From an uncultured Verrucomicrobiae bacterium (GTDB lineage: Bacteria; Verrucomicrobiota; Verrucomicrobiia; JADLBR01; CALLMV01), in the NCBI GenBank assembly GCA_938005615.1, contig CALLMV010000011.1, forward strand, positions 1-64,000: 64,000 nucleotides of DNA. Direction: 5' to 3'. Under the pieces are notes generated by a model that made no database searches, was not told the origin of the DNA, and was given only the letters and a program-made list of their open reading frames with translations. Positions 26,459 through 42,647 of the stretch are shown here, one piece after another. The position numbers and the translations under genes are program-made. Position 1 is the first letter of the stretch, and every line of letters begins with the position of its first letter.

Positions 26459-26530
26459 TGGGCGGTGAGGGGTTCGAACCCCCGACCCTCCGAGTGTAAA
26501 TCGGATGCTCTACCACTAAGCTAACCGCCC
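26459..26530 (-). tRNA. tRNA-Val (anticodon TAC)
   Basis: The minus strand gives acceptor GGGCGGT/ACCGCCC, D arm TAGCTTAGTGGTAGAGC, anticodon stem TCCGA/TCGGA with loop TTTACAC (anticodon TAC), and T arm GGGGGTTCGAACCCC. Discriminator A, no encoded CCA, 72 nt. It sits between prfC and the end of the long minus-strand pilus operon. Confidence 0.95.
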
Positions 26531-26534
26531 TGAG

Positions 26535-27026
26535 TTAAAAGGGGACGTAAGCAGCACGTCCGTCTCCCTTCACCTCAATTATACCGTTGCCGTGGATTGC
26601 GACAACCTCAAAAAAAATGGTATATCGTGCTGCATCTATTTGATTGAGATCAAAGTAGCGCACACCGGTAGAGGCGAAATGAAAGTCACCTGCCAATTCG
26701 GGCTGTCGTCGCTCTATGGCCGGGCATTGGAAGTGCATTTTTCTGATCCCATAGGGTGCCAGAAGGTGTGCCACCATGTCCATATGTGTTGGGAAGTAGT
26801 CATTGAGATTCACGTTGTCCGATTTATGTTCCGCCACATAGCTCAAACTAGCTTGCCCGAGCTTGCCGCGAAGTGAAAGGCATTGGACAAAGTTAGTAGT
26901 ATTCATAGCCGAATTTACTACTGGGAAGGACAAAGCGACTAAGATTGATATCACTGAAATGGTAACCAGGGCCTCCACGAGGGAAAGCCCTGTCTGCAAA
27001 GCGAACTGCCTGCTTCTCACAGGCAT
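26535..27026 (-). CDS. Type IV prepilin-like (pseudopilin) protein
   Basis: A 163-aa protein with a class III signal: FALQTG, cleavage, then LSLVEALVTISVISILVALS, including the Glu at +5. The mature part is small, without the paired C-terminal cysteines of major pilins, and looks like a minor pilin or type II secretion pseudopilin. It is the last gene of the minus-strand run containing two secretins, a PilM-like protein and Amuc_1100-type proteins, 6 bases after the preceding gene. No prepilin peptidase, PilB/GspE ATPase or PilC is in the window. Confidence 0.75.
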   Translation of the reverse strand: MPVRSRQFALQTGLSLVEALVTISVISILVALSFPVVNSAMNTTNFVQCLSLRGKLGQASLSYVAEHKSDNVNLNDYFPTHMDMVAHLLAPYGIRKMHFQCPAIERRQPELAGDFHFASTGVRYFDLNQIDAARYTIFFEVVAIHGNGIIEVKGDGRAAYVPF

Positions 27027-27032
27027 GAGAGT

Positions 27033-27656
27033 TTACCGGAAGATTTTGACTCTACCGATGCCTTGGAGGGCTTGGCCGCCAGCAACTTCGATGATGGTAG
27101 TGCTGTTTCCTGTCACGTCTATCGGTCCCATAGATGACTGTAGAGTAAAGACGGAGAATATCTGGGAGTTATCGTCGCGATAGTTGATCGATCTGAAAAA
27201 TTTTCCCGCAGTCACTTTCACATTTTTGAGAATCCCTTCCTGAGTAAACTGAACATCTGAGCCGCTGCCTATTTTTTGTGCGGAATAGCTAAATGTGTAG
27301 CTTATATCATTTGCCCGGTTGATAATGGGGCTTGCCAAGCTAGGGCCAGGTGACAAGGGAAAAACACTAAACGTGGCTGCAGAGATGGGATTAGATAACC
27401 CGCCCAAGAACATCCTTCCATTTGCGCCGCCGGTTACAAAACCAAACTCTGTAAATGCCAAAGAAAAGTTAAACAGGCCAGATACGTTTATCCCAAAACT
27501 TGGACCTGGGTTGTAGATGTGAAAAACGGGGAAAACGATCGCCGAGTAACTACCTACGGCGCCTGAACCAAACCTGAAGCTTTGTGCTTGGGATGAGGTG
27601 GTAGCCGTTGCCAGTATTGCTGCTGCTAACAATGTGGTTAATGTCATTTTTTTCAT
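27033..27656 (-). CDS. Secreted protein of unknown function, 207 aa
   Basis: A signal peptide (MKKMTLTTLLAAAILATATT, cleavage near SQA-Q) is followed by a Gly/Ser/Phe-rich sequence of predicted beta strands. No cysteines, lipobox or sorting tail are seen. I do not recognise the family. It lies 14 bases after the second secretin and 6 bases before the prepilin-like gene, so it is probably exported or assembled with that system. It could be a repeat-poor surface subunit or a passenger of the locus. Confidence 0.6.
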   Translation of the reverse strand: MKKMTLTTLLAAAILATATTSSQAQSFRFGSGAVGSYSAIVFPVFHIYNPGPSFGINVSGLFNFSLAFTEFGFVTGGANGRMFLGGLSNPISAATFSVFPLSPGPSLASPIINRANDISYTFSYSAQKIGSGSDVQFTQEGILKNVKVTAGKFFRSINYRDDNSQIFSVFTLQSSMGPIDVTGNSTTIIEVAGGQALQGIGRVKIFR

Positions 27657-27670
27657 TTATCATTTCTCCT

Positions 27671-30040
27671 TTAGTTGAGTGATTTGAGCTGTTCGAGAGT
27701 AAGTGTTTCTATAGGGTTAAGAAATTCACCAGTTGGAGTGATTAGTCTTGGGCTAACGAAAATCATGAGGTTTTTCTTGATAACTCTACTAACTTTAGAC
27801 CGAAAGAGGCGACCAATCAAGGGAATATCTCCAACAATCGGCACTTTGTCGTTGATGGTTTGATTATCTTCGCGAAGAAGTCCGCCAAGTACGAGTGTTT
27901 GTCCGTCAAAGACCTGCACGCTCGTGCGTATGGTGCGGGTATTGAAAACAGGCATATTGATGATATTAGGAGTCAAAGGCAAATTAGCATTTCTGTTTAA
28001 GGGATTTAAAATAGGCTCACCGTAATTGATAAACCCTTCGAACTCTGTAACTTCTGGGATAAGATCCATGCTGATAGTAAAGTTGTCAGGACCAACTTGG
28101 GGGCGGACATCGAGGACGACACCGACTTCTTTTTCTTCAAACTCTGCTGGGAAGGAAGGAGCAACTACGGGTGTAGCAATTTGGGTTCCTCCACCTCCGC
28201 CGCCGCCTCCTCCACCAGTGTTATTAAAATTTTGGGGAAATTCTGGCTTGTCGTACTCGCTGGGGTAGTAGAAGCGGCGGATAATTTTGATATTAGCGCG
28301 CTCGCCGGAGCGTGCGATGACTTTGGGTGCGGAAAGCACGTCAAAGCCATTCTTCTGCGAGAGTGCGCGTATCATGACGTCGAAATTGTATCCCACGGCC
28401 TGAACGGCAAAGTTCAGCTTGTTAGAGATGGGATCAGTGTTTGCGCCGCGATTGGCGTTTAGCAGGGCATCAATGGAGCGGGTAGGCAGGTCGAGAGAAG
28501 TTCTCAAACCGTTGAGGTTGTTGAGGCCGTTCATGTTATTGTCGGAGAGGTCGCCACGGGCGTAAGTATAATTGCCGTCCTTGACGACGTTCATCGCGGT
28601 TGAAATTTCGTCGAGATCGGACTGATTAATTTCAGTAAATTTAGTCTCGATCATGACTTGGGGTACAACTTCGAGGTCTGAGCCAATGAGCATGTCTATG
28701 ATTTCGATTTGCTGCGGGGTGTTGCGGACGGTGAGCCGTCCAGTCGCGCTGGAATAAACGACGGATGAGCCCGCGGCATCAAAGCTCACACCACGACTAA
28801 TGAGTGCCTGTTTGACATCAAGAGTACCAGCTGTGGTAATGTTGTCCTGGAGTTGCACCCTGCGACGTCTGCCGGTGCCCGTCTCTTCTGCTCTGGCGGC
28901 TGAAGTGGTTAGGAAGTCGGGGCGTACTAGGTAATCCTTGGTGATGAGTTGGTTGGTCTCGGCGGTCAGTGGAACAATGGTGATGGCGAATTCGCCAATT
29001 TGAAATTTAACGTTGGCAAGTTGGCAGGCGTATCTGAGCACTTCGAGCATGGGCATATCGGTCACAGTCATCGTCACGTCTCTGGTCTCAGTATCACCTA
29101 CGCGGGATACGAAGTTGAATCCGCGTTTGTCTGGAGAGGGGTCAAGCTCTTTGCTGCGGATGTTCAGGAAGTTGATGACGTCGCCGATGCTGGCTTGATT
29201 GAAGGAGACACGTGGAACGATCATTTGGGATAGTCTCCGCTCGATGGATTGGGTGCTGCTTTGGTCTATCACAGTACCCCCACCTTGGTAGGCAGCCACG
29301 ACCTCCTGAGGAATTGGGCTTTCCCAGGCAGCGTTAACTTCGGTGAGTCGCTCCTCACGGGTGCTGAGTTTGGCAGCGCGAGCGTGGCGCATTTTTTGGT
29401 CGTAAACACGGCGGAGCATTTGCCGTGCTGTTCTGTTGTAGGGGTCAACTACGAGCACTTGTTGAAACTTGCTCTCTGCAGCATCAAACTGACCTGTTTT
29501 GAGGAAAGCCTCGCCCTCGGAGAGTAGGTTCTTTACTTCAACGATGCTGCGCATGAGGCGCGGAGTGACTGCTGCACCTTCGGGCCAGATGACTTCATTA
29601 TCCGGACCGACTTCCACGCCCATAGCCGCATAGAGCTCGCGGCGCAAACGCAACACACGGGAGTTTTCAGGCGCGTAAGCGTAGGCTTCCTCGAGGCGTT
29701 CACGGGCGATGTTTAGGTCATCGGCGACGAGTGATTCTCGGGCTAGTTCGACAAGGCAGATGGCTATGCTGTCGTAGATGCGAGCCTGGAGTTCCGCGGA
29801 GCGAGGCGCAAGAGGCGGCAGCAGAGTTGAAGCCGAGCGTAAAATGGGAAGTGCCTCGCTGTATTTGTTTTGCGCCATGAGATCCACAGATTCGTTGTAG
29901 AGTTCCTGGGCACGAACGGCGGCATCCTCTCTTTTTTGTCTTTCATTTTGGACAATTTGCGTGGCTGTTTGAGCCTCGGCAGGGATGCTCTGAAGCACTG
30001 CCAATCCAACCAGGGTGATGATAGTAACTGTGGGTTTCAT
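27671..30040 (-). CDS. Second secretin of the pilus locus (GspD/PilQ superfamily)
   Basis: About 789 aa from the Met at 30040 (MKPTVTIITLVGLAVLQSIP, signal peptide); an upstream Met at 30073 would add 11 residues. TPR-like helices (about 30-210) are followed by N-domain modules with VTDMPMLEVLRYACQL. The secretin pore (about 490-790) contains VFDGQTLVLGGLLREDNQ, the signature VPIVGDIPLIGRLFRS and KKNLMIFVSPRLITPTG. A run of ten Gly codons sits at 28187-28216, just before the pore strands. It is a paralogue of the secretin encoded directly upstream, with the same architecture. It would form an outer-membrane ring. Confidence 0.88.
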   Translation of the reverse strand: MKPTVTIITLVGLAVLQSIPAEAQTATQIVQNERQKREDAAVRAQELYNESVDLMAQNKYSEALPILRSASTLLPPLAPRSAELQARIYDSIAICLVELARESLVADDLNIARERLEEAYAYAPENSRVLRLRRELYAAMGVEVGPDNEVIWPEGAAVTPRLMRSIVEVKNLLSEGEAFLKTGQFDAAESKFQQVLVVDPYNRTARQMLRRVYDQKMRHARAAKLSTREERLTEVNAAWESPIPQEVVAAYQGGGTVIDQSSTQSIERRLSQMIVPRVSFNQASIGDVINFLNIRSKELDPSPDKRGFNFVSRVGDTETRDVTMTVTDMPMLEVLRYACQLANVKFQIGEFAITIVPLTAETNQLITKDYLVRPDFLTTSAARAEETGTGRRRRVQLQDNITTAGTLDVKQALISRGVSFDAAGSSVVYSSATGRLTVRNTPQQIEIIDMLIGSDLEVVPQVMIETKFTEINQSDLDEISTAMNVVKDGNYTYARGDLSDNNMNGLNNLNGLRTSLDLPTRSIDALLNANRGANTDPISNKLNFAVQAVGYNFDVMIRALSQKNGFDVLSAPKVIARSGERANIKIIRRFYYPSEYDKPEFPQNFNNTGGGGGGGGGGTQIATPVVAPSFPAEFEEKEVGVVLDVRPQVGPDNFTISMDLIPEVTEFEGFINYGEPILNPLNRNANLPLTPNIINMPVFNTRTIRTSVQVFDGQTLVLGGLLREDNQTINDKVPIVGDIPLIGRLFRSKVSRVIKKNLMIFVSPRLITPTGEFLNPIETLTLEQLKSLN

Positions 30041-30079
30041 ATTTTGAGTTGTGTTGTTTTTGATTGTTCTCATGAGCGT

Positions 30080-32524
30080 TTATTTCCCGCGAGTCTTTTC
30101 GGGTGCGGCTTCTGCTATGGTTTTTGCTCCTCCGAGAGAGGTTGAGATTGGTCTGCCAGACCAGCGTTCGACACGGTCGAAGACAGGCGTGTTGGAAAAG
30201 AGATCGTCATCGCGTCTGCCTCTGACGTTAAAGGGGTCTCCGTCCGGTTTTACAAGGTCGCAGGTCACAAAGATAATGAGATTTTTCTTAAGACTCTGTT
30301 CGATTTTCGAGCGGAACAGGCGGCCGATCAGCGGGATGTCTCCGAGGAAGGGGATTTTATCGTTGACCGTCTGGTAGTCATCTCGGATGAGTCCTCCGAT
30401 GGCGACGGTCTGGCCGTCGGATATTTGCACTTTGGTTTCTATGGAGCGTAGGTTGAAGACGGGTTTATTAATGACGTTTTGAACCAGCGGTGTGACTTGG
30501 CCTGTGGTAAAATCCAGCGTGGAGATGGGGGATCCGTAGTTGATGAATCCCTCGAAGTCCAGCACGCGAGGGGCTAGAGTCAGGTCAATAGTTAAACGGT
30601 CTGGAGCCACTTGCGGTGTAGCATTAAGAATGACGCCTGTATCCTCTTTGGTAAAAGTGGTGGGGGTGGAGGGGACGACGAGGCGGATGGCGGTTCCGTT
30701 AGGCAGCAGGGTGGTGTTTCCGTCAAACTCTGCGTTTTCGTATTCATCAGGGAAGAAGAATTCGCGGATGATTTTAATTTCAGCTTCCTGTCCGCTGCGG
30801 ACGGTTACACTAGGCACTGCGAGTAGGTCGCTGCCAGTTTTTTGTGAGAGGGCGTAAACTAGCATTTCAAATTCAAACTGGGAGAGAGTTAGCCCGGCTT
30901 GGATGGCATGGCCAATGGGGCCGAGTGCACCCAGCGCCTGGCCCAGCAGGCCGTCAATGGCGTTTTGGACGATTGCCTCTCCGGCCACGCTGAGCTCAGG
31001 TGGCAGGGGGGCAAAGATGTCTGTGGGATCGAAACGAGGCGCTGAGGTGCGCAGACCAGGCGTGTCGGTCAGTTGGCTTTGTCCGCGACCTTTGCGGTTG
31101 AGGTTCCACCTGAAGGACATTTCTTCAAGGTCGTTTTGATTCACTTCCATGAAGCGGGTGGCAATGTTTACTTGGGGGATGAGTTCGTTGTCGTCTTGCA
31201 GGGCTTGTTCAATGAGCTGAATATTGCTGAATGTGTTGGCAACAATCAGCTTGCTGCCGATGGGCTGGTAAGTGGCAAAAGAGCCAGGAGCGTCAAATGT
31301 CACGCCCAGTTGTGAGAGACGTTCTGTAACTTGTCTGCGCTGATCTTCGATGTTATCCGCAGCGGGTGGGAAAAACCCGGATGCAACGCGAAATTCTCTG
31401 GTGATGAGATCTTCGATGTTTTCAGCAGAAGGAGCGATGTAAACGGCGAATTCTTCTACGCGGTAGATGAGTCCAACTTGGTCCGCGATAAGGTCGAGCA
31501 CTGCGCCTAAGGGGAGATTACTGACGGCAAGTGTGACAAAGTTCGAGGCCTCAATGGAGGGCTTGACAATCAGGTTAACCCCCTTGCCTTCAGGATCTGC
31601 AATCCGCGCCTTGTCGCGGAGTAGTGCAATTGCTCGCTCGAGCTCGGTTCCATCGAAGTTGACTTGATCAATGATGATTGAGTTGAGTTTTTCTGTGATT
31701 CTGGCGATGTTGGTGATCCGCTGGCTACGGCCACCGCCCATTTGGGCGTCACTCACAAGAGTCGTTTTTCTGATGGGGTTACTCCACCCTGCTTCAACTT
31801 CGTACAGCATGCGTTCGCGAGTCTGGGTTCGTGCCTCCAGGTAGTAACGATTTTTTAGCTTAGCAACTTCCTTAATTCCTTCGCGTGCGGCAACATTATA
31901 TGGGTCGAGCACGAGGATTTTCCGGTAGCGGTCGTCAGCTTTATCAAACTGGGAGGTGGCACGAGCGTTGGCAGCTTCATCGAAGTAGCGATTCACTCGG
32001 CTGAGCGCGATCAGAAATTCTTGAGTCATGGCCGGAGCAATGTCTGCAGGAATTTCTTTAACTGGTATCCCGAGTTCTGAAGCTGAAACCGCATAGATTT
32101 TTTGGAGGTCTCTGTTACCGGGGTCGACGGCTAGTACCTCTTTGGAGAGGTCGTGAGCAGTCTGATAATCACGTCGTGCAAACGCCTGGCGTGCGAGCTG
32201 AGTGTTAGCCAGGGTGAGACCTGTGACTGCTCGGCGATAGACTTCCTGAGTCGCAGGTGCCTCTGTGAGATTGTTGATCACGTAACGGAAGCGGTTGGCG
32301 GCCGCAGCGTATTGCTCTGCTGCGAGTAGCCTGTTGCCGTGAACCACTGCTTCGCGAGCCACATTTAACAATTGAACTCGGCGAGCGGTCTCCGAGCTTT
32401 GCGCAAATGTATTATGAGGGATTGCTAAACTCAGCATCATTAGCGTGAGGGGGATCACCCCGGATGAGATGATTGTGTGGTGGCTATTTTTGTTCATTTG
32501 GGTGATTTTGTACTGTGGGTTCAT
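30080..32524 (-). CDS. Amuc_1098-like outer-membrane secretin
   Basis: About 814 aa from Met 32524 (Met 32497, MNKNSHHTIISSG, is an alternative; both precede one signal peptide ending in NTFAQ). The longer frame overlaps the previous gene and is unlikely. The order is TPR-like helices (QTAHDLSKEVLAVDPGNRD, later DDRYRKILVLDPYNVAAREG), N0/STN-like module (VSNLPLGAVLDLIADQVG), N1-type module and secretin pore. The pore has ISDGQTVAIGGLIRDDYQ, VPFLGDIPLIGRLFRSK-type signature (here IPFLGD) and KKNLIIFVTCDLVKPDG. This is the architecture of the Akkermansia Amuc_1098 secretin. It heads the second half of the operon. Confidence 0.88.
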   Translation of the reverse strand: MNPQYKITQMNKNSHHTIISSGVIPLTLMMLSLAIPHNTFAQSSETARRVQLLNVAREAVVHGNRLLAAEQYAAAANRFRYVINNLTEAPATQEVYRRAVTGLTLANTQLARQAFARRDYQTAHDLSKEVLAVDPGNRDLQKIYAVSASELGIPVKEIPADIAPAMTQEFLIALSRVNRYFDEAANARATSQFDKADDRYRKILVLDPYNVAAREGIKEVAKLKNRYYLEARTQTRERMLYEVEAGWSNPIRKTTLVSDAQMGGGRSQRITNIARITEKLNSIIIDQVNFDGTELERAIALLRDKARIADPEGKGVNLIVKPSIEASNFVTLAVSNLPLGAVLDLIADQVGLIYRVEEFAVYIAPSAENIEDLITREFRVASGFFPPAADNIEDQRRQVTERLSQLGVTFDAPGSFATYQPIGSKLIVANTFSNIQLIEQALQDDNELIPQVNIATRFMEVNQNDLEEMSFRWNLNRKGRGQSQLTDTPGLRTSAPRFDPTDIFAPLPPELSVAGEAIVQNAIDGLLGQALGALGPIGHAIQAGLTLSQFEFEMLVYALSQKTGSDLLAVPSVTVRSGQEAEIKIIREFFFPDEYENAEFDGNTTLLPNGTAIRLVVPSTPTTFTKEDTGVILNATPQVAPDRLTIDLTLAPRVLDFEGFINYGSPISTLDFTTGQVTPLVQNVINKPVFNLRSIETKVQISDGQTVAIGGLIRDDYQTVNDKIPFLGDIPLIGRLFRSKIEQSLKKNLIIFVTCDLVKPDGDPFNVRGRRDDDLFSNTPVFDRVERWSGRPISTSLGGAKTIAEAAPEKTRGK

Positions 32525-32559
32525 AAACTCAAGAACGGATCTTTGGAATAATGGTTGTC

Positions 32560-33621
32560 TTAAAAGAATATTTCGGTAGAAGTTTCTGTAGGTTGTTGTG
32601 GGGTGGGTTGGGGTGCTGTACGCGATATCCACTCCTCTTCATGGGGAAGTGGCGGATGAAGTTCAAATCTGGCTCCAGTAGTAATTTCCTCTACAATTGC
32701 ACTAGATTGGCCATCTTTCTCACCAACGCTAATGAGTTTAAACTTCTGGCCGCGTAGTAAGAAATCTCTGGAGACTCGAGCTTCTATGATTTCGGAGACG
32801 GGTCCAGCGGAAAGGTCGCGCAAAAACATGATGGATTCAGGGGAGTCAATTTCTCTGCCTAAAATAAGCGTCACCTTCTCCCCAGTAATCGTGTGTTGGA
32901 GATCCAGCTCTGAGTCATCGAATTCTCGATCTCCTTCTATTCTTGGGTCGAAACGCACTTCTACTTTACGCCGAAATTGACCGACCTTCCATTCTTCGAT
33001 CACATCACCGAACACCACGAAAGGGCTCCTGTTTCTGCGATCTTTTGCGTCTTGAAAGTTAAGCTGATAATTCATCACGCCATCAAGTTCGTTGTATGCC
33101 CGGAAAATCATGCGGAATGGGATTTTTCTGCTGTCCACTATACGAAGCTTAGTGATATGAGGCGGATGGCTCTGGGAATCAGTCGGATTAGTGCCAGCTA
33201 CGAATTCATCTTTGTTGAGGAAACCATCACCATCGGGATCTTGAATGCCAACAAAGGGATCAGCCAGCGACAGGGAGTATCTGGACTTCCACTCACGAGG
33301 GATGCCGTATTTGTCAGTGGCTTGGGCATCGTAAACTTTGATGAGACCCTTATCAGGGAGAAACTCAATGGGCCGAGAAACGACGAGGCGATGGGTGCTT
33401 GCTGGCTCCTGCCAAGGGGAAAAAGCAGAGAACTGACGGGTGAGGTTTGAAAATTTCCCATCATCAGGATCCTTGGGCAGCGGCACTTCGCGCATTGTAG
33501 CACTTATTTGTCCCAATGAATAGTTTCCTGGCTGAATAGCAACAAATACAGCGATCACTGTGAGGATGACAAGTGCCAGAGATAGTGAAAATTTCTCCCA
33601 ATGCTGGACGATAATATTCAT
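32560..33621 (-). CDS. Amuc_1099-like pilus-system membrane protein
   Basis: A 353-aa protein from the ATG at 33621, which overlaps the previous stop by 4 bases (ATGA). A short cytoplasmic end with one membrane helix (about 12-32: LSLALVILTVIAVFVAI) is followed by a periplasmic part. This carries one Ca-type repeat, DPDGDGFLNKDEFVAGTNPTD (about 130-150), and a beta-rich C-terminal domain. Position between Amuc_1100-like and secretin genes, single anchor and repeat fit the Amuc_1099 family. It may play the PilP/GspC role of linking inner-membrane parts to the secretin, which is inference. Confidence 0.72.
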   Translation of the reverse strand: MNIIVQHWEKFSLSLALVILTVIAVFVAIQPGNYSLGQISATMREVPLPKDPDDGKFSNLTRQFSAFSPWQEPASTHRLVVSRPIEFLPDKGLIKVYDAQATDKYGIPREWKSRYSLSLADPFVGIQDPDGDGFLNKDEFVAGTNPTDSQSHPPHITKLRIVDSRKIPFRMIFRAYNELDGVMNYQLNFQDAKDRRNRSPFVVFGDVIEEWKVGQFRRKVEVRFDPRIEGDREFDDSELDLQHTITGEKVTLILGREIDSPESIMFLRDLSAGPVSEIIEARVSRDFLLRGQKFKLISVGEKDGQSSAIVEEITTGARFELHPPLPHEEEWISRTAPQPTPQQPTETSTEIFF

Positions 33622-34625
33622 TTTACCTGCTCCTGCGAATTTTTCCAACCGATGTAATCAATCCTCATGGCCACTCTAATGGTCTCATTGCCGACTATGA
33701 TGACTGGAGCAATGCTACCAGGCAAGATTCCCGGGATAGCCGATGTGCCGCCGGCGGTCTGAGTTCTGCCGGCAGTAGCAGTTCCGGCTGCAGCAGCTCG
33801 AAGCTGCTCGATCGTGGGTAAACTGCTCTTAGAGTTTTCGATGTCCATAACGCGAATAACGTAATATGGATTCGGTGGGTTATTTTCTCTCTTCTCGCTG
33901 GTAATATCTGGCGGCTTAGAAAAGTGATTGACAATTCTGCGCAATGAACTTTCGTCAGATTCAAATTCGACGACAAAAGGAAGAATTTCGTAGGAGAGAT
34001 TTTGCGAAAAACTCACCGGCGGGATGTAGTCAAGATCTACGTTCTGGGCTCTGACACCCGTAGCAGCATCTAAGGCACCACCTGGGGGCGAAGTCTCGAT
34101 GAGCATGCGACGTACAGCGTATATACGTGACACTCGGGTTTCGATGAGTTTCTCTACGATATTTTCCACGAGTTTAAGCTGTTTGGAGAGTTGCGCGGTA
34201 TCTTCTGCCACAGGGGTATTAGTCGCGTAGAGGGAGAATCCAAATTGGAAGTTTTCCGGTATGGTGATCCCAGCGTTTTGGCAATCCTCTATTAATTTTT
34301 GTTTTGTTCTAGCAAAAAGGGATTGGAACATAGTACCCGAAATCTCCTCGGTGTTTATTGCTGCGGCGGCGAGCGCATCAAGGCTTGGACGAATATCTTT
34401 TTCCAACCGATTGTTGTTTTCTTGCAGAGTGTTCAAATTGGCTTGACTGGGAAAGTTGGGTCTGGATTGAAGACGGTTGTGCTCAGTTCTGGTCTGTTGA
34501 AGTGACGCTTCCAATTCGACAACTTGCTGGTTGGTCAAATACCAACCGAAAGAACCGGCAGCAATGATTATCGTAGAAATTCCGGCCATCGCCAGTATTG
34601 CAGGACTGAGTTTATTCTGTGCCAT
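33618..34625 (-). CDS. Amuc_1100-like pilus-system protein
   Basis: A 335-aa protein with one N-terminal membrane helix (about 9-30: AILAMAGISTIIIAAGSFGW), a coiled coil (about 32-90: VELEASLQQTRTEHNRLQSR) and a mixed alpha/beta periplasmic domain. A Thr/Ala/Gly-rich tail segment (about 285-310) precedes a last strand. Size, layout and neighbours match Amuc_1100, the abundant pilus-locus protein of Akkermansia. The layout also resembles PilO/PilN. It begins 1 base after the PilM-like gene and overlaps the next gene by 4 bases. The family call rests mostly on context and architecture. Confidence 0.72.
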   Translation of the reverse strand: MAQNKLSPAILAMAGISTIIIAAGSFGWYLTNQQVVELEASLQQTRTEHNRLQSRPNFPSQANLNTLQENNNRLEKDIRPSLDALAAAAINTEEISGTMFQSLFARTKQKLIEDCQNAGITIPENFQFGFSLYATNTPVAEDTAQLSKQLKLVENIVEKLIETRVSRIYAVRRMLIETSPPGGALDAATGVRAQNVDLDYIPPVSFSQNLSYEILPFVVEFESDESSLRRIVNHFSKPPDITSEKRENNPPNPYYVIRVMDIENSKSSLPTIEQLRAAAAGTATAGRTQTAGGTSAIPGILPGSIAPVIIVGNETIRVAMRIDYIGWKNSQEQVK

Positions 34626-34626
34626 G

Positions 34627-36411
34627 TCAGGGAATGAGTGAAATTGGTTCTTTTAAGGGTATAGTAATCTCAAAACGCAACGCAATGTTGCGGTCAGCCG
34701 CATCGACATCGCGTTTAATGAGACCTTGTTTGTCAACCTCTTCCTTGGTAAGTGCAAAAGGACTATTCGCAGCAAGGATATTTTTAACGAAATCATCTAC
34801 ACGAGATTCTCCCATGAGTCCCACGTCTTCTTGGGAATCCATTAGACTGGAACGGTCGTAAGACTCATAAAAGCCGGCAAGTCGGATATGACTGATGAGC
34901 GCCTCGGTGCTTTCTGTTGTTTGGACACGACGACCTGTTCGCGTTTCCGTCAAAGCCTGGTTGGGAAGGAATGTAACGGGCTTCTCACCGCTCAGAGGCT
35001 CTATGTCGGTAAGCCAAATTCCCGTAACTGCATTTTCGTTCAAGTATTCAAGCAATTCGATCCAGCGTTGTTTATCGATCGAGAGGGCCAGGATTTGGCT
35101 GCCGATGTTTTTTAAGGTGGCTGCCCTTTTTTCTTCAACCTCCATTTTTCTGAGGATGGAGTTGCGCTCAGAGAGCTCTGTTTGCAGTGCATTTTTTTCT
35201 GCTGCAACCACGTTTGATTTAAGCAAATTCGCAACGATGGGAACGGCAAAGGCCGCAGCGAGAATCAATGATGTTGTTGCAATCAGCGTGGATTTCTTTC
35301 TGGCTTCAAGTTTGTTACGCACAGAATTTGGCACGAGATTGATTTCTACAGGAGTCTGAGGAAGAAATCTTGTGGCCAATCCCACTACTGTTCCGAACCT
35401 GTGGGCCGTTTCGGCAAACTTGGCAGTATCTGCGCCAGGTGCAGCTTCAACATTTCTTAAGGGGTTAAAGTATTCAACTTCACAAGAAAGCTTTTCTTTC
35501 AAGAAAAGATCCATGTAGGCTAGAGAAGCTGTACCCCCAGCGAGCAAAATCTTACTGGGACTGCTACCGCCGTGCTGAGTGCGATAAAAACTAATCGACC
35601 TGACTATTTCTGCATGCAGTCTGGTCATGACGGTGCGAATGATTTTGGAAACCCTAGCGGCCACCTCGTCGGGGGGGTCTTCATAGCCTCCTCCCAAACC
35701 AACAAAGCCTTTGCCTTGTTTAATAATCTCGGACGCAGCAAAGGGCTCCTTCAAGTCTTGCGCGATAGACTGGGTGATTTGATTGCCTGCGATAGGAACG
35801 CCCCGGATAAAGATTCTTCCATTTTCTGAAAAGACCAATTGAGTGGCCTTGGCGCCCATATCAACAAAAAGAATACACCCGTCAACATTCGGATAGTTAA
35901 ACCTCAGAGCGTTGTAAGAAGCCAGGGGAGAAACGTCCACAAACTCGGCCAAGTTGCCTGAGGCCACGACAGCAGCATTGATTTGGTCTAAAATGTCAGA
36001 TTTTATCGCGACAATAATGCACTCCAGGTCGCTAGATGTTGCCCCGGAAATGAGTTGGTAGTCCCAGACAACTTCGTTCATTTGAAAAGGCACATTTTGC
36101 TGAGCCTCAAATTTGACCATCTGGCTGATTTGAGACGGAGCAGTAGCTGGAAGACGAACGATTCTTGTAAAAACCAGTTGGCCGGATACTGAGAACGCCA
36201 CCCGCGCGGACTTCACACCAATCTGTGAGCAAATAGATTTCAACACGCCAATTAATGAAGCAAATGTCGTTTCATCAGTAGACGCAAGCTCGAGGGGTTG
36301 CTCCAACAGGTTTATGACTCGCAATCCACCACCCTGACTGATCTCAAAATGTCCGGCATGGACTGAGTGCGTACCGATATCGAAAGTGATAATTGGAGAT
36401 TGGCGGCTCAT
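34627..36411 (-). CDS. PilM-like actin-fold protein with a fused PilN-like part (Amuc_1101 type)
   Basis: A 594-aa protein. The N-terminal two thirds (about 1-345) is an FtsA/PilM actin-like ATPase: ITFDIGTHSVHAGHFEISQG (phosphate 1), MVKFEAQQNVPFQMNEVVWD (PilM signature), VDMGAKATQLVF (phosphate 2) and ILLAGGTASLAYMDLFLKE (adenosine). A membrane helix (about 372-392) and coiled coil follow. Then comes a small domain with ELLEYLNENAVTGIWLTDIE, the pattern of PilN. So PilM and PilN functions appear joined in one chain. It should sit on the inner membrane as the platform of the pilus-like machine. Confidence 0.82.
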   Translation of the reverse strand: MSRQSPIITFDIGTHSVHAGHFEISQGGGLRVINLLEQPLELASTDETTFASLIGVLKSICSQIGVKSARVAFSVSGQLVFTRIVRLPATAPSQISQMVKFEAQQNVPFQMNEVVWDYQLISGATSSDLECIIVAIKSDILDQINAAVVASGNLAEFVDVSPLASYNALRFNYPNVDGCILFVDMGAKATQLVFSENGRIFIRGVPIAGNQITQSIAQDLKEPFAASEIIKQGKGFVGLGGGYEDPPDEVAARVSKIIRTVMTRLHAEIVRSISFYRTQHGGSSPSKILLAGGTASLAYMDLFLKEKLSCEVEYFNPLRNVEAAPGADTAKFAETAHRFGTVVGLATRFLPQTPVEINLVPNSVRNKLEARKKSTLIATTSLILAAAFAVPIVANLLKSNVVAAEKNALQTELSERNSILRKMEVEEKRAATLKNIGSQILALSIDKQRWIELLEYLNENAVTGIWLTDIEPLSGEKPVTFLPNQALTETRTGRRVQTTESTEALISHIRLAGFYESYDRSSLMDSQEDVGLMGESRVDDFVKNILAANSPFALTKEEVDKQGLIKRDVDAADRNIALRFEITIPLKEPISLIP

Positions 36412-36414
36412 TGT

Positions 36415-37101
36415 TTACTTGAGGCTGGTTTTGTAAGGGCGATAGTATCTATCCCAAAAATCGTTCATCCACGGTGTTTCCGAAATAGGAAGAAGCACAC
36501 CGGTCTTTCCTTCCTTCCTAAACCAATCGGGGTTATCTCCTGCACGACTACCTCTTTCGCGAAGCTCAACTTCAATAACAGCCTTACTATTGTAGGACAC
36601 TTCAACAGCAACATTCGACGCACTTCTAATTCTGCTTTCTCCGCCAAATCTTTCTACCCAAGTTGGTGGGATAAACGCAATGAAAGCCATTTGGCGAGCG
36701 GGTTTGAGATGAGCGAAGCTTTGAGACAAGGAAAACACTTGCCTTTGATCGAATTCCACATCATCCCGGCTCGGCTCAGGAGTAAGCCAATGAATTTTAA
36801 CTTCTAAATCTTTGATGTAGTCCAGACGCCTTATCAAATCTTCAGGTATGGCTTCAATGACTACTTCAATCTGCACCCAGTTCACTATGTCAATTAGTCG
36901 TGTGCGAACGCTCGTAGAGCGTGGGGGCTCTACCGATTCTATGGTTATTGATCGAGGTTGAGCTGAAAATCCTCTGACGGTTTCCACTCCTTGGGCGCTT
37001 GAGCTGAGAGGTGAAATCATAAGCAGCCCCAAGAGCAGATTCATTAGAAAAATAGGCATTAAAGTTGATACTCGGATGACGGATTTGGTTTTGAGGACCA
37101 T
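36415..37101 (-). CDS. Amuc_1102-like pilus-locus protein
   Basis: A 228-aa exported protein from the Met at 37101, which gives a normal signal peptide (MVLKTKSVIRVSTLMPIFLM ending near SSAQG). A GTG at 37167, overlapping the nudix stop as TAGTG, would add a 22-residue basic extension. The mature part is a predicted beta sandwich (NWVQIEVVIEAIPEDLIRRL, then YIKDLEVKIHWLTPEP and AVEVSYNSKAVIEVELRERG). No cysteines are seen in the mature chain. Its place next to the PilM-like gene, 3 bases away, fits the Amuc_1102 family. The role is unknown. Confidence 0.65.
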   Translation of the reverse strand: MVLKTKSVIRVSTLMPIFLMNLLLGLLMISPLSSSAQGVETVRGFSAQPRSITIESVEPPRSTSVRTRLIDIVNWVQIEVVIEAIPEDLIRRLDYIKDLEVKIHWLTPEPSRDDVEFDQRQVFSLSQSFAHLKPARQMAFIAFIPPTWVERFGGESRIRSASNVAVEVSYNSKAVIEVELRERGSRAGDNPDWFRKEGKTGVLLPISETPWMNDFWDRYYRPYKTSLK

Positions 37102-37166: not shown

Positions 37167-37700
37167 CTAAATTGTAACCAAAGAAACAAGCCGTTCGTAG
37201 GGCACCGTCTCCACCCTCATCTGAAGCATTTTGTCTGTATCAAACACGAAACGAGCTGTGAGAAAATGACCGTCCAGTACAGCCGGCAGCCAGTATCTAT
37301 CGTCCTGCCACATCCGCTCAAAGGGAATTCGTGAGACTTCTACCCAAAACGGGATAGCCTCATCTGTTTCTCTCAAATTTCCTGTTAACGAGTTAGCAAG
37401 AAAAACGTGACACCGCATGGCATAACCGTCAGTAAACTGAAAATCGATCGAAGCATGGTGTGATGGTGACACCGGCTCGACACCGACTTCTTCACGCGTC
37501 TCCCGCACTGCGGCCTCGATTGCCGTTTCTCCCGGCTCTAAACGACCACCGGGGGCGTTGACTTTCCCGGCACCTAGGCCGCGCTTTTTTTCTATGAGCA
37601 AGAGCTTGTCTCCACTGCGAATAAATGACAGGACGGCTGTCTCCCGTGGGATCCACCCTCGCCAATCAAAATCCGCCCATCTACTGCTGTTGCAGATCAT
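37167..37700 (-). CDS. NUDIX hydrolase (MutT type)
   Basis: A 177-aa protein with a complete Nudix box, GGRLEPGETAIEAAVRETRE followed by EVGV (about residues 50-73). This gives the Mg2+-binding REx2EE core. MutT/MTH1-like surroundings (SFIRSGDKLLLIEKKRGLGA, then GKVNAPGGRLEPGE) resemble oxidised-purine nucleotide hydrolases such as MTH1 (2-hydroxy-dATP/8-oxo-dGTP). It starts at an ATGA overlap with leuD and ends at the first gene of the pilus locus. That makes it a bridge between the two groups. Confidence 0.88.
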   Translation of the reverse strand: MICNSSRWADFDWRGWIPRETAVLSFIRSGDKLLLIEKKRGLGAGKVNAPGGRLEPGETAIEAAVRETREEVGVEPVSPSHHASIDFQFTDGYAMRCHVFLANSLTGNLRETDEAIPFWVEVSRIPFERMWQDDRYWLPAVLDGHFLTARFVFDTDKMLQMRVETVPYERLVSLVTI

Positions 37701-38272
37701 GCGGTTTGCGGCTTGGGGATCATGCCCATTTTACGGGCATATTCAAAAATTCCACCGGCTTGCACCACAGGCAGCACCTCTCCCAAGGGTTTAAGCAAAT
37801 GGATCTGACCGGCAAATTCCAGGGTATTGTTTTTAAAGTTCACAGTCGCCAAGTCGCCGGTTTTCAATATATCACACAATCGCTCTGCGGAATCATATGG
37901 AAAAACTTCGCCGGTAGCGACGCAATTTCTGAAAAAAATGCGCGCGTAACTTTGAGCAACAACAACTTTTACACCAGCCGCACCTAGAGCAATCGGTGCG
38001 TGTTCCCGCGAGGAGCCACAGCCGAAATTCTTTCCTGCAATTACGATAGGATATGCGCTCTTCATTGAGCCTTCAGGCACTAATCTCACGGGGTAAAGCG
38101 ATTCGGGCAGGCCAGCCAGTGCATAGCTCCCCAACTTCTCATACTCCTCGGGAATTGTGGGCACCAAGTTCAAGTATTCTGCTGGTATGATCTGATCGGT
38201 ATCGATGTTGTCAGAAACAACATAAACAGGTCCTGTTACAATGTCTTCAAAACTCTTGGACTTAATGCTCAT
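37697..38272 (-). CDS. leuD: 3-isopropylmalate dehydratase small subunit
   Basis: A 191-aa swivelling-domain subunit. The features are VYVVSDNIDTDQIIPAEYLN, AGKNFGCGSSREHAPIALGA (substrate-recognition loop) and VVAQSYARIFFRNCVATGEV. It pairs with LeuC to isomerise 2-isopropylmalate in leucine synthesis. It begins 3 bases after leuC and overlaps the nudix gene by 4. The homoaconitase/methanogen HACN-like short form is possible from the size, but leucine synthesis is the simplest reading. Confidence 0.9.
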   Translation of the reverse strand: MSIKSKSFEDIVTGPVYVVSDNIDTDQIIPAEYLNLVPTIPEEYEKLGSYALAGLPESLYPVRLVPEGSMKSAYPIVIAGKNFGCGSSREHAPIALGAAGVKVVVAQSYARIFFRNCVATGEVFPYDSAERLCDILKTGDLATVNFKNNTLEFAGQIHLLKPLGEVLPVVQAGGIFEYARKMGMIPKPQTA

Positions 38273-38275
38273 AAT

Positions 38276-39655
38276 TTACTCCGATAAAAACTCTCTTGGA
38301 TCTGTAATGTAACCTGTCAAAGCAGACGCCGCCACAGTATATGGCGACGCCAAGTAAACACGCGACTCCTTATGCCCCATCCTACCAGGAAAATTTCGAT
38401 TTGTTGCTGAAATGCAGCTCATCGGCTTGTTAATCCTACCAAATGTATCCTGCGGACCGCCAAGACATGCGGCGCATGACGCATTCTCCGTCATCAATAC
38501 GCCTGCGCTCTCAAGTCTTTCCCAAACAGATTTCCCTTCCCATACGATAGACTGCAGCTCCCGCACTACCGTCGGGGTGGCTGGCACCCCAAAAGTGTCA
38601 ATTTTCACCCGCCTGTTTCCGATTACTTTTGCGAAAGCCAAGAAATCTGATGTTTTTCCTCCGGTACAAGAACCTATATAGGCTCTATCCAGCGTGACTT
38701 TATTCAAGTCCTTAGCCAGAGCTCTGTTGCCTGGATCTGGGTGTTGGGCAACCGTCGGTTCAATTTTGCTTAAATCGAATTTCCTATCGTAGCAAAAATG
38801 CTGATCCCGATCAAGTTCGACAGGCGTATATTCCTGACGCGTGCCGTTTTTTCTTGTGGATTCTCTCACATAATCCTCTGTCAGCCGGTCATAAGGAAAT
38901 ACTCCGTTTTTTCCTCCTGCTTCAATCGCCATGTTCGCAATAGTCATTCGGTCATCCATATTCAGCGATGCGACCCCTGGTCCTTCGTATTGCATTGCAC
39001 GGTAAGTGGCACCATCAAAACCGATATCCCCAATGATATGAAGAATGACGTCTTTGGCCATCACTCCAAATGGCAACTCACCTTCAAGCCAGAAGCGCAT
39101 TGTTTCAGGCACTTTCAGTAAGATTTTACCGGTGCCTAATACAAACCCGGCATCAGTGTTACCGATTCCAGTGGCAAACATGTTGAAAGCGCCTGCCATA
39201 CAAGTATGAGAATCAGTGCCTACCAGAATTTCACCGGGTCGACAGTGCCCCTTTTCAGGCAGAGCGGTGTGACAAACACCTGCAAAAGATGAACCGTATT
39301 GGCGCTTGAGCTGCCCTTTAGAAGGATCAAACTCCCACTTGGCATCAGCGCCGTCCCCATCAATTACATCGTAAAAGTAGGGAATCCCTTGTTCCCTGAC
39401 GAAATTGCGCAAAATGTCCACATTACGATTCGATTTACTGTCGGCTGTAAAAATGTAGTGGTCAGGAATGATCACTACACGAGATTTGTCCCAAACCTTA
39501 GCATTCTGTCCAAACTCCCGTTTAAATACCCCGATCGTGCCAGGTCCGCAGACATCATGCGTTAGTAAAGTATCGACATTCACCCAGACGTTTTCCCCAG
39601 CGGAAACACTGGATCGACCAGAAGCACGCGCCAGTAATTTTTCGGTAAGAGTCAT
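38276..39655 (-). CDS. leuC: 3-isopropylmalate dehydratase large subunit
   Basis: A 459-aa aconitase-family subunit. The 4Fe-4S ligands are seen in YIGSCTGGK and NASCAACLGG. Substrate and fold motifs include VGTDSHTCMAGAFNMFATGI and the C-terminal ATNRNFPGRMGHKESRVYLA with SPYTVAASALTGYI. First gene of a run of closely spaced minus-strand genes reaching 26.5 kb. The AT-rich 39656-39900 upstream is the likely promoter region, although I could not fix one. Confidence 0.92.
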   Translation of the reverse strand: MTLTEKLLARASGRSSVSAGENVWVNVDTLLTHDVCGPGTIGVFKREFGQNAKVWDKSRVVIIPDHYIFTADSKSNRNVDILRNFVREQGIPYFYDVIDGDGADAKWEFDPSKGQLKRQYGSSFAGVCHTALPEKGHCRPGEILVGTDSHTCMAGAFNMFATGIGNTDAGFVLGTGKILLKVPETMRFWLEGELPFGVMAKDVILHIIGDIGFDGATYRAMQYEGPGVASLNMDDRMTIANMAIEAGGKNGVFPYDRLTEDYVRESTRKNGTRQEYTPVELDRDQHFCYDRKFDLSKIEPTVAQHPDPGNRALAKDLNKVTLDRAYIGSCTGGKTSDFLAFAKVIGNRRVKIDTFGVPATPTVVRELQSIVWEGKSVWERLESAGVLMTENASCAACLGGPQDTFGRINKPMSCISATNRNFPGRMGHKESRVYLASPYTVAASALTGYITDPREFLSE

Positions 39656-40000
39656 ATTGCTCTTTTAAAGCCACAGAAAAAAAAAGCAATGAAACGCTAA
39701 AAAAAAGTTAAAGAAAGATTTCACAAAAAACGAACTGTTAGTCCACAAGTCTACATATAAAAATATCATAAACTTGACTAAATAGTTTGCTATGTTATTT
39801 TAAGTCTAAATTCTGAAATTTATGTCTTACAACGTAATTTTGTTAAAGCAGATGAATGCAGATCTTATATTTTGTAGTCCAATCAGTAGGTTTAACACTT
39901 TTATCTATTCAGAAGTTATTGCAAGAATTTCAATTATATGCAACCGTGCATGGCCACAATTAAAATAAAACTTAGACAGATAAATGCCGTAAGAATCTGA
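39656..40000. other. AT-rich divergent intergenic region
   Basis: 345 bases between the divergent leuC and TPR-protein starts. The stretch is strongly AT-rich with several A and T runs, many stop codons in all frames and no open frame worth reporting. It must contain the leuC promoter (minus strand) and that of the TPR gene. I see no convincing riboswitch, leader peptide or repeat. Confidence 0.5.
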
Positions 40001-41623
40001 GTGAAAATCAATAAATATTCACGTAAACGAAATGGGTTGATAATTTTTTCTGTGACTATTATTATTTCTGTTTCTATTGTTTTTAAAAAAAAAGATATTG
40101 CTAAGTCAATAAATGATCTAAGCGGACTATTTCATTTATCTCAAGCGCGTAGATTGTTATCTGATGTTAAATACGACTTAGCCTTAAATCACCTAAAAAA
40201 AGTAATCACAATTCATCAAGATTCAGTAGAGGCTTGGGAAATGATTGTTCTTATATCCAAAGAAATCAATGACGAACAACTTTTGCTAAGGGCGTTATCT
40301 AAACTATCAGTCTTAGACCAAAGAAGCAAAGCTAATGCAGTTGAGTTTCTCAAACTAGCACGTAATTCCAAACAAAGTTACTTGGCAGCACCTCTTTTAA
40401 GTTTAATCATAGACTCTCACCCATCCCGTCCAGAAATTCTTCATGAGAGTGCACTTATACTAATTTCTCTTGGTCTGACAAATTCTGCCGGAAATCTTCT
40501 TGGCGAAGCTATAAAACTTAACCCTGAAAATAATGAAATTATTTTTGCAAAATCTACACTTGATTTGCTATCTGATAACAGTCAAACTCTTGCAAGAGCC
40601 ACTAATAGCTTAGAGCAAATTCGACTAACTGACAAAAAATTTTCAATACCAGCAACAATTAATTTGATAAACTATTTCAGAGATAACAACACTACAAGAG
40701 CTTTAGAACTATTAGCGCAAGCCAAAAAAATCGAACCAGATAACTGGGCGCTAAGACTTTTGGAATTAGACCTCTCGTACAAGGCCGGTGAAGAGGAGTT
40801 GCCTCTGCTTTTCGAAAATATACTACCTCTGGCTGATTCTGAAGAAAAATTTATTGAATTAATCATCAGAGTCGCAAAATATCAAAGTCCAGAAGCAGCT
40901 CATAATTTCATTAACAACTTAACTACTGATAATATAACAAGCGCAACAAAAGATTACTTACGCTTACCGGTATTCTGGTTAACTAATGACTATAATTCGA
41001 TCTTAGATGCGACTGAAGATCTATCAATCAGAATTGATGAAAAGAGAGCTGCTAACATGTTGTTGTGGCGCGTTAGAGCGTTAACAAAAATTAATCCAAC
41101 ACTAGCAACTAACACCTTAAATAAGTTTATTAACAAATTTTCAAACAGCCCCAAAATATTAATAGATTCTGTTGAATTATTGAAATCTTGGAATTTACAA
41201 GAGTACACCAGACCCGTTTTACAAAGATTGGTTGATTCACGTGGTCCCTATCTGTACTATAGCTTAGTTTTGTTATTAGAGCAGGCTCATTTAGAGGGAG
41301 ATATCCTTTTGCTACTCAATACAACTTCTCAATTGCTTGAAATACAGCCAGATAACCCTATTTTACAGTTTAACTTTGTAACATTAGCGCTAGAAGCAAA
41401 TGTCAATATTCCTAAAGCAGAAAAAATTGCTGAGTCACTTTATCGTTCCTACCCGAATGAGCCAGGATTGCTTCATCTTTACGCACAGGCATTGGCAGCT
41501 AATGGAAGACAAGAAAAAGCTTTAGAGTTATACGATTCATTGTCTAGCAGTGACTTGAAAACAACACCGATCATCTTTTCATATGAGGCATTATTACTCA
41601 AAAATCTTCATGATATGAAATAA
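40001..41623 (+). CDS. Membrane-anchored TPR-repeat protein of unknown role
   Basis: A 540-aa protein starting with GTG. A basic N-terminus and single membrane helix (about 12-30: GLIIFSVTIIISVSIVF) are followed by an all-helical solenoid. TPR-like units include ALNHLKKVITIHQDSVEAWE, NLLGEAIKLNPENNEIIFAK, ALELLAQAKKIEPDNWALRL and LHLYAQALAANGRQEKALEL. Base composition is far more AT-rich than the surrounding genes, with Asn, Lys and Ile favoured, which suggests foreign origin. Such proteins often scaffold envelope or polysaccharide export complexes. No partner gene is next to it. Confidence 0.7.
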   Translation: MKINKYSRKRNGLIIFSVTIIISVSIVFKKKDIAKSINDLSGLFHLSQARRLLSDVKYDLALNHLKKVITIHQDSVEAWEMIVLISKEINDEQLLLRALSKLSVLDQRSKANAVEFLKLARNSKQSYLAAPLLSLIIDSHPSRPEILHESALILISLGLTNSAGNLLGEAIKLNPENNEIIFAKSTLDLLSDNSQTLARATNSLEQIRLTDKKFSIPATINLINYFRDNNTTRALELLAQAKKIEPDNWALRLLELDLSYKAGEEELPLLFENILPLADSEEKFIELIIRVAKYQSPEAAHNFINNLTTDNITSATKDYLRLPVFWLTNDYNSILDATEDLSIRIDEKRAANMLLWRVRALTKINPTLATNTLNKFINKFSNSPKILIDSVELLKSWNLQEYTRPVLQRLVDSRGPYLYYSLVLLLEQAHLEGDILLLLNTTSQLLEIQPDNPILQFNFVTLALEANVNIPKAEKIAESLYRSYPNEPGLLHLYAQALAANGRQEKALELYDSLSSSDLKTTPIIFSYEALLLKNLHDMK

Positions 41624-41867
41624 ACTCAAATATATTTTAAGCATTTTTGAAGCATGTACTAGAAGTCATATTATCTAGTATATTGTTTTTTTGGTTATCA
41701 GGTTATGATAATTACTAAATTGTTAATAATACTTTCTAACTAATTTAGACTTTATAACATTGAGAATTTTTACTTCCATCATTAGTTAGCCATTTTCAAC
41801 ACTTTATGTTGAGTATTTTTTTAATTTGCTTCTTTCCCGTTTCTTAATAATATTAAAAGACCTATAC

Positions 41868-42647
41868 CTAAAACCCTATACTGTTGCCTCCGTCGACTGG
41901 CAAATTTACACCAGTAATAAATGAGGCCGCATCGGAGCACAAGAATACAGCCGCGAAAGCAACCTCCTCCGCTTGGCCCATGCGGCCGAGCGGAGTCCTT
42001 CCAAAAACTTTTGCCTTGCGTTGAGGATCTGCATTTAATGCCTTGTCTGTCATGGCTGAGTAAATGAATCCGGGTGCAATAGAGTTTACTCGAATGCCAT
42101 GTTCGCCCAGCTCAGAAGCTAGTTCGACAGTAAGTCCTAGCACAGCGGATTTTGAAGCGGCGTATGCTGCGACTCGTGTCAATCCATACATAGCTGCCAT
42201 AGAGGTAATGTTGAGGATAACACCTTGTTTGCGAGGCAACATTTTTTTTACAACTTCTCTTGTCAAAGAAAATAGGCCTAAAACATTCGTTTGCTGAATG
42301 TTGGCACATTCTTCGTCTGTTATCTCCCAAAAATCTTTTTTTAGATTAATACCTGCGTTGTTAACTAGGATATCAATATCACCAAATTTAGTTGCTACGT
42401 CCTGCACCAAATGAGGAATTTTAGTCAAATCGGAAACATCGCCTACTACGTATGAAACTTCGTCACCTATTTCCTTCGATGCTTGCTGAAGAACTTCTTC
42501 TCTACGTCCTGTAATAACTACACGTGCACCAGCAGTGACAAAGGCTTTAGTGATGGCGAGTCCTATTCCAGTTCCACCACCCGTTACCAAAGCTAATTTT
42601 TTCTCCAAAGAAAATTTTTTTATAAAATCGAAATTTGTTTCTTTCAT
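41868..42647 (-). CDS. Short-chain dehydrogenase/reductase (SDR family)
   Basis: A 259-aa classical SDR. The features are an NAD(P) Gly motif TGGGTGIG, NNAGI near residue 100, a catalytic Ser in NITSMAAMYG and a YAASK catalytic pair, then SIAPGF. The end INLPVDGGNS-like (VNLPVDGGNSIGF) is typical. The overall pattern is closest to gluconate 5-dehydrogenase/2-deoxy-D-gluconate 3-dehydrogenase types, but the substrate is not certain. It lies in the AT-rich island, with an AT-rich gene-free gap (41624-41867) before it. Confidence 0.85.
   Translation of the reverse strand: MKETNFDFIKKFSLEKKLALVTGGGTGIGLAITKAFVTAGARVVITGRREEVLQQASKEIGDEVSYVVGDVSDLTKIPHLVQDVATKFGDIDILVNNAGINLKKDFWEITDEECANIQQTNVLGLFSLTREVVKKMLPRKQGVILNITSMAAMYGLTRVAAYAASKSAVLGLTVELASELGEHGIRVNSIAPGFIYSAMTDKALNADPQRKAKVFGRTPLGRMGQAEEVAFAAVFLCSDAASFITGVNLPVDGGNSIGF

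Follow-up and report, generated by a model that had tools for sequence, protein, structure and literature searches.

Eight minus-strand genes run head to tail at positions 26535-37101 of the window, by which we mean the whole 64,000-nucleotide stretch of DNA analysed here. Judged by their gene families, they are the local version of the pilus-like Amuc_1098-1102 operon of Akkermansia (MUL2). Taken as a whole, we consider it probable that this is a MUL2 platform and gate locus whose secretin gene was duplicated in the distant past and whose two secretins most likely serve one machine. Because two secretins and two more genes stand at the end of the operon, the locus is a variant of MUL2 and not a copy of it.

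Gene content of the locus and its relation to MUL2

The conserved first gene of the operon (36415-37101) encodes an exported beta protein of the Amuc_1102 family (MUL2A type) with a signal peptide. The NCBIfam model NF042424 matched it with 30.6 bits (E 2e-7), which does not reach the family cut-off of 55, and a profile of 22 relatives searched against solved structures recovered the crystal structure 7dsz (E 2.5e-25). It is followed by an Amuc_1101-family protein (MUL2B type; 34627-36411), matched over its full length by NF045709 (501.8 bits, E 3.3e-150; equivalog cut-off 650). An earlier note on this DNA had read this gene as PilM, possibly joined to PilN, and the structure matches confirmed the fusion: profile columns 1-351 matched M. 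xanthus PilM (E 2.5e-56) and columns 356-487 its PilN (E 5e-8). The third gene (33618-34625) encodes a membrane-anchored coiled-coil protein of the Amuc_1100 family in a PilO-like position, with 124 bits to NF038287 (E 8.5e-36; cut-off 180) and matches of its relatives' profile to 6lad (E 5.7e-33), 6kny and 6laf. The fourth (32560-33648) is a membrane-anchored Amuc_1099-family protein that scored 83.9 bits with NF042425, over the cut-off of 50. The calcium-type repeat previously noticed in it proved real: it is a TSP3/EF-hand-like DPDGDGF motif, with the family-wide consensus DPDxDGFxNxEE. Similarity to the Amuc families was thus found for all four non-secretin proteins, and relatives' profiles searched against solved structures make those to Amuc_1102 and Amuc_1100 firm. 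Most scores lay under the strict equivalog cut-offs, as expected from a distant lineage. Neither 1099 nor 1102 had a significant sequence match among solved structures outside Akkermansia.

Two Amuc_1098-family secretins follow, the proximal at 30080-32497 (likely start ATG at 32497) and the distal at 27671-30073. They scored 532.6 and 584.8 bits with NF042912, respectively, both under the 750-bit equivalog cut-off, and 124.2 and 124.3 bits with the PF00263 barrel (E 5e-36 for both). Structure models, in which the loops are of low confidence, showed both to be full length, with a TPR-like helical N-region, N domains and a complete barrel, so that the two full tandem secretins described earlier were indeed present. 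The best fold matches of both were to PilQ (E 9e-18 for the distal and 1.3e-15 for the proximal copy), and GspD folds were matched too; the TM-scores were low, since the domains of a subunit modelled by itself have no fixed placement (pTM about 0.4). The conserved GFINYG hairpin, the gate signature and the whole barrel are kept in both copies, which are 34% identical to each other. They are also the only PF00263 matches in their own genome, a draft that is 76% complete.

The junctions are short throughout. There are 3 nt between 1102 and 1101 and 1 nt between 1101 and 1100, an overlap of 31 nt between 1100 and 1099 if the longest 1099 start is taken, and 62 nt between 1099 and the first secretin given the ATG at 32497. 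A further 6 nt separate the two secretins, 14 nt the second secretin from an exported-protein gene, and 6 nt that gene from a pseudopilin gene. The run of eight closely spaced genes, and the five Amuc families in order within it, therefore stand as the earlier note had them.

Compared with the Amuc_1102-1098 (MUL2) locus of Akkermansia muciniphila, the window has an identical set and order of the five families, including the PilM-type protein, the anchored 1100 and 1099, the exported 1102 and a TPR-bearing secretin. Genomes that we assign to the Akkermansia type carry a single secretin in the operon, with another family member elsewhere, whereas the window has a tandem pair, an exported protein and a pseudopilin. 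With the PilMNOPQ set of type IVa pili the locus shares homology to PilM, PilN and a PilQ/GspD-type secretin; in contrast to that set, PilM and PilN are fused, no PilP was detected and there are two secretins.

Distribution and history of the tandem secretins

Side-by-side secretins of the Amuc_1098 family were found in at least 22 of the 141 sampled genomes of the class, a count that leaves out three more genomes cut by contig ends. They span 12 of about 48 families (f2, f3, f16, f19, f21, f26, f29, f30, f32, f33, f37 and f45) and nearly always follow 1102-1101-1100-1099; further tandem genomes are L126, L131, L136, L156, L168, L170, L171, L175, L187, L197 and L199. Dozens of genomes repeat all five families in this order, a synteny that excludes chance. 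Three of the four other sampled genomes of the window's own order have the pair, and in the fourth (G025) a contig end interrupts the locus. The second secretin had first been seen as a feature of this genome; instead, as far as the contigs allow, it is common to the rest of the order, and the tandem is, on the sequence record, a recurrent ancient duplication within Verrucomicrobiota and no local oddity. Operons of Kiritimatiellia and Lentisphaerae, where readable, have one secretin each. Those of family f5, taken as Akkermansiaceae from very high family scores, likewise have one, with the second family member elsewhere in the genome; in L094 and L096 this second secretin was not a neighbour of the 1099-1102 genes. 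In the literature searchable here, which covers few subscription papers, we found no mention of paired secretins alongside MUL2 synteny.

Several records in the survey deserve separate comment. L136 bears the title Candidatus Methylacidiphilales and has the whole locus, tandem secretins included, in contrast to a report that MUL2 was not detected in Methylacidiphilales (PMC13174399); that title may have been loosely applied. L171 is labelled Betaproteobacteria but contains a tandem-secretin operon of verrucomicrobial type, and mislabelling or mis-binning is probable. L073 and L076 (family f26) are without a separate 1100 and have a 1099 match of 570-580 aa, so the two genes may be fused there. 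In L071 (G100) the proximal secretin lies in two reading frames, through decay or sequencing error. Long open-frame values in G107, G129 and G040 had raised the prospect of secretins fused in one frame; this was rejected, as a stop codon was found between the copies.

The first and second copies are, by their trees and positions, separate orthologous groups whose order has been kept. In the clade of the window, 13 first copies (T1, with the proximal secretin) and 13 second copies (T2, with the distal one) fell on opposite sides of one branch with support 88/89 in a 26-row tree; the split was less clean in trees of 37 rows and of all 81 rows, and the fine order within the clade depends on sampling. 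The T1 and T2 orthologs in the order-mate L126 are 48% and 45% identical to the window's copies, so that orthologs (45-48%) are closer than paralogs (32-34%), and a comparison of T1 with T2 gave essentially no fixed residue differences. A second clade (e.g. L168 and L175) has proximal and distal groups of its own. Holding all proximal copies together, as expected if every tandem pair went back to one origin, was strongly rejected by an AU test on trees smaller than the full 81-row set (p-AU 4e-50). The tandem therefore arose at least twice, or the copies were homogenised in one clade, and two or more origins appear the simpler reading of these trees.

Accessory genes, surroundings and candidate motor

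The two last genes had been proposed, together with the second secretin, to extend the operon into a larger machine. The genes are present, but they form a separate module that also occurs after single-secretin operons. An exported protein follows the secretin or secretins in the window, L053, L066, L077, L086 and L088; with the exception of L066, each of these has a pseudopilin after it. Since L077, L086 and L088 have only one secretin, the module does not depend on the duplication; the idea that the pseudopilin goes with the second secretin was rejected because families f4 and f7 carry the module with one secretin.

In the window, the exported protein (27033-27656) has a signal peptide and an unknown fold and is fast evolving. 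These proteins are barely alike in sequence across genomes, with weak similarity of the window's protein to the exported proteins in the corresponding position of L053 and L066, and no Pfam or NCBIfam family over cut-off and no PADLOC match was found for it. The pseudopilin (26535-27026) has a prepilin-like N-terminus and an H-X9-DG-like C-terminal motif. Its N-terminal methylation motif (PF07963) scored 17 bits, below the Pfam cut-off of 21.2, but its mature part matched pilins linked to the operon in other genomes (E 7e-6 to 9e-4); these homologues support the prepilin-like identity proposed earlier. The mature part had no match to six compared prepilins of its own genome.

On the same strand, a tRNA-Val (tac) at 26459-26530 begins 4 bases past the pseudopilin stop and may share its transcript. 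Upstream, leuC, leuD and a NUDIX gene (37167-39655, minus strand) run straight into the operon with short gaps and overlaps; a conserved link to these genes was rejected, as none was found near the operon in relatives. Further on, the G+C content drops from about 0.48 to 0.34 at 39900-42000, over a TPR gene (40001-41623), which may mark an acquired stretch. Promoter and terminator scans of the locus gave no more matches than shuffled sequences.

Candidate motor genes lie outside this operon. A PilB-PilB-PilC run was found in the same genome at G000:C17 (L204:3446-8079), and the genome's ORFs of the T2SSE family comprise three PilB-type and two further ATPases, with locations also at C24 and C4. 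In G025, PilB and PilC genes are near the locus. Two PilB-type ATPases in tandem ahead of PilC are found in other genomes of the class as well as at C17; close pairs of such ATPases occur in single-secretin genomes too.

Proposed joint function of the pair and its alternatives

In G016, of the same order, the 1102-1099 genes are on one contig (C33) with no secretin beside them, and the secretin pair is on another (C110), still in tandem and with an exported-protein gene after it. Across the survey, 30 of 31 pairs had no more than 27 nt between the two genes, and in 12 of the pairs these overlapped by exactly 4 nt. That the pair moved as a unit, in constant order and tightly coupled, leads us to favour joint function on genomic grounds, although this has no word to say on mixed rings. 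Furthermore, T1 and T2 distances were correlated (0.98; partial correlation 0.90 given 1099-1101), for which the paralogs' shared constraints may explain part. In 30 of 31 pairs one partner only has an N-domain loop that is longer by 7-34 residues and often Ala/Pro-rich. The long-loop copy is the distal one in one clade and the proximal one in the other; because pairs within a clade are not independent, this asymmetry counts as two observations and not thirty. The window's pair is the sole exception, both segments having 50 residues. Other tandem operons (L131, L136, L156, L170 and L187, and L168 and L175 of the second clade) share the order 1102-1101-1100-1099 followed by two secretins with the window, but differ from it in combining a long-loop with a short-loop secretin and in having no detected pseudopilin after the pair. 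About a quarter of the sampled families share the duplication and it has at least two origins, which suggests that the two channel proteins act together. A second secretin is not a mechanical necessity, since the operon has a single one in many relatives, among them Akkermansia. We conclude that, as far as gene order and divergence can tell, the two secretins are produced together and function as one unit within MUL2, a machine resembling type IV pili, in which they may be in physical contact.

In the machine that we propose, Amuc_1101 (PilM-PilN), 1100 and 1099 would form an alignment complex spanning the inner membrane and periplasm, 1102 would be its exported beta protein and the secretins its outer-membrane gate. 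Motor and platform would be supplied by the PilB, PilB and PilC encoded elsewhere in the genome, a partnership that we infer along with the substrate and co-assembly in one machine. After the ancient duplication in this lineage, both secretins would be made together from their tightly coupled genes and kept paired. Such coupling and retention make one machine most likely, with the two acting in a shared ring or as two specialised channels, and the last two genes would add an exported accessory protein and a minor pilin. The Akkermansiaceae 1099-1102 locus, MUL2, has been connected with the attachment and uptake of large glycans (PMC13174399), and by analogy the machine encoded here probably has such a role.

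Under this best explanation, one case is that of two separate homomeric channels on one inner-membrane platform, for example one for a pilus and one for protein release. We regard this as a real possibility that falls short of probable. Barrel, gate signature and hairpin are whole in both copies, the N-domain loop differs in length in one copy of most pairs, and no other secretin accompanies the several T2SSE-family ATPases of the genome, although one could be missing from so incomplete a draft. The pair comes with a single platform set (1099-1102), however, and its order and tight coupling suggest balanced production and not alternative use. The other case, co-assembly in one heteromeric ring or in two stacked rings, we put forward tentatively. 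Constant order, coupling, movement as a unit, correlated divergence and repeated origin would all fit it, but paralogs are retained together for other causes as well; to our knowledge secretins are regarded as homomeric rings, and we know of no heteromeric secretin.

Two readings outside the best explanation fare worse. Redundant copies might simply raise the amount of an abundant protein, and Amuc_1098 does sit in the outer membrane and, of the proteins there, is the most abundant one in A. muciniphila (PMC4960237). We think plain dosage improbable, as orthologs are far more alike than paralogs, and fixed positions and recurrent loop differences have been kept over very deep divergence. A chance neighbourhood of unrelated secretion genes can be set aside with near certainty: the minus-strand run does go on upstream into genes unlinked to the operon in relatives, but the recurrence of five families in one order across dozens of genomes refutes it.

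The boldest form of the shared-gate idea, that on two or more occasions Verrucomicrobiota evolved an outer-membrane secretin that is heteromeric or two-tier and built from two specialised, tandem-encoded paralogs, seems to us doubtful; if true, such a two-component secretin would be the first natural gate of this kind known to us. Akkermansia's single-secretin layout is not the sole layout of this locus in the phylum, and the ancient, repeatedly evolved and co-transferred pair offers a naturally occurring test case for whether secretin rings can be mixed or one platform can have two exits.
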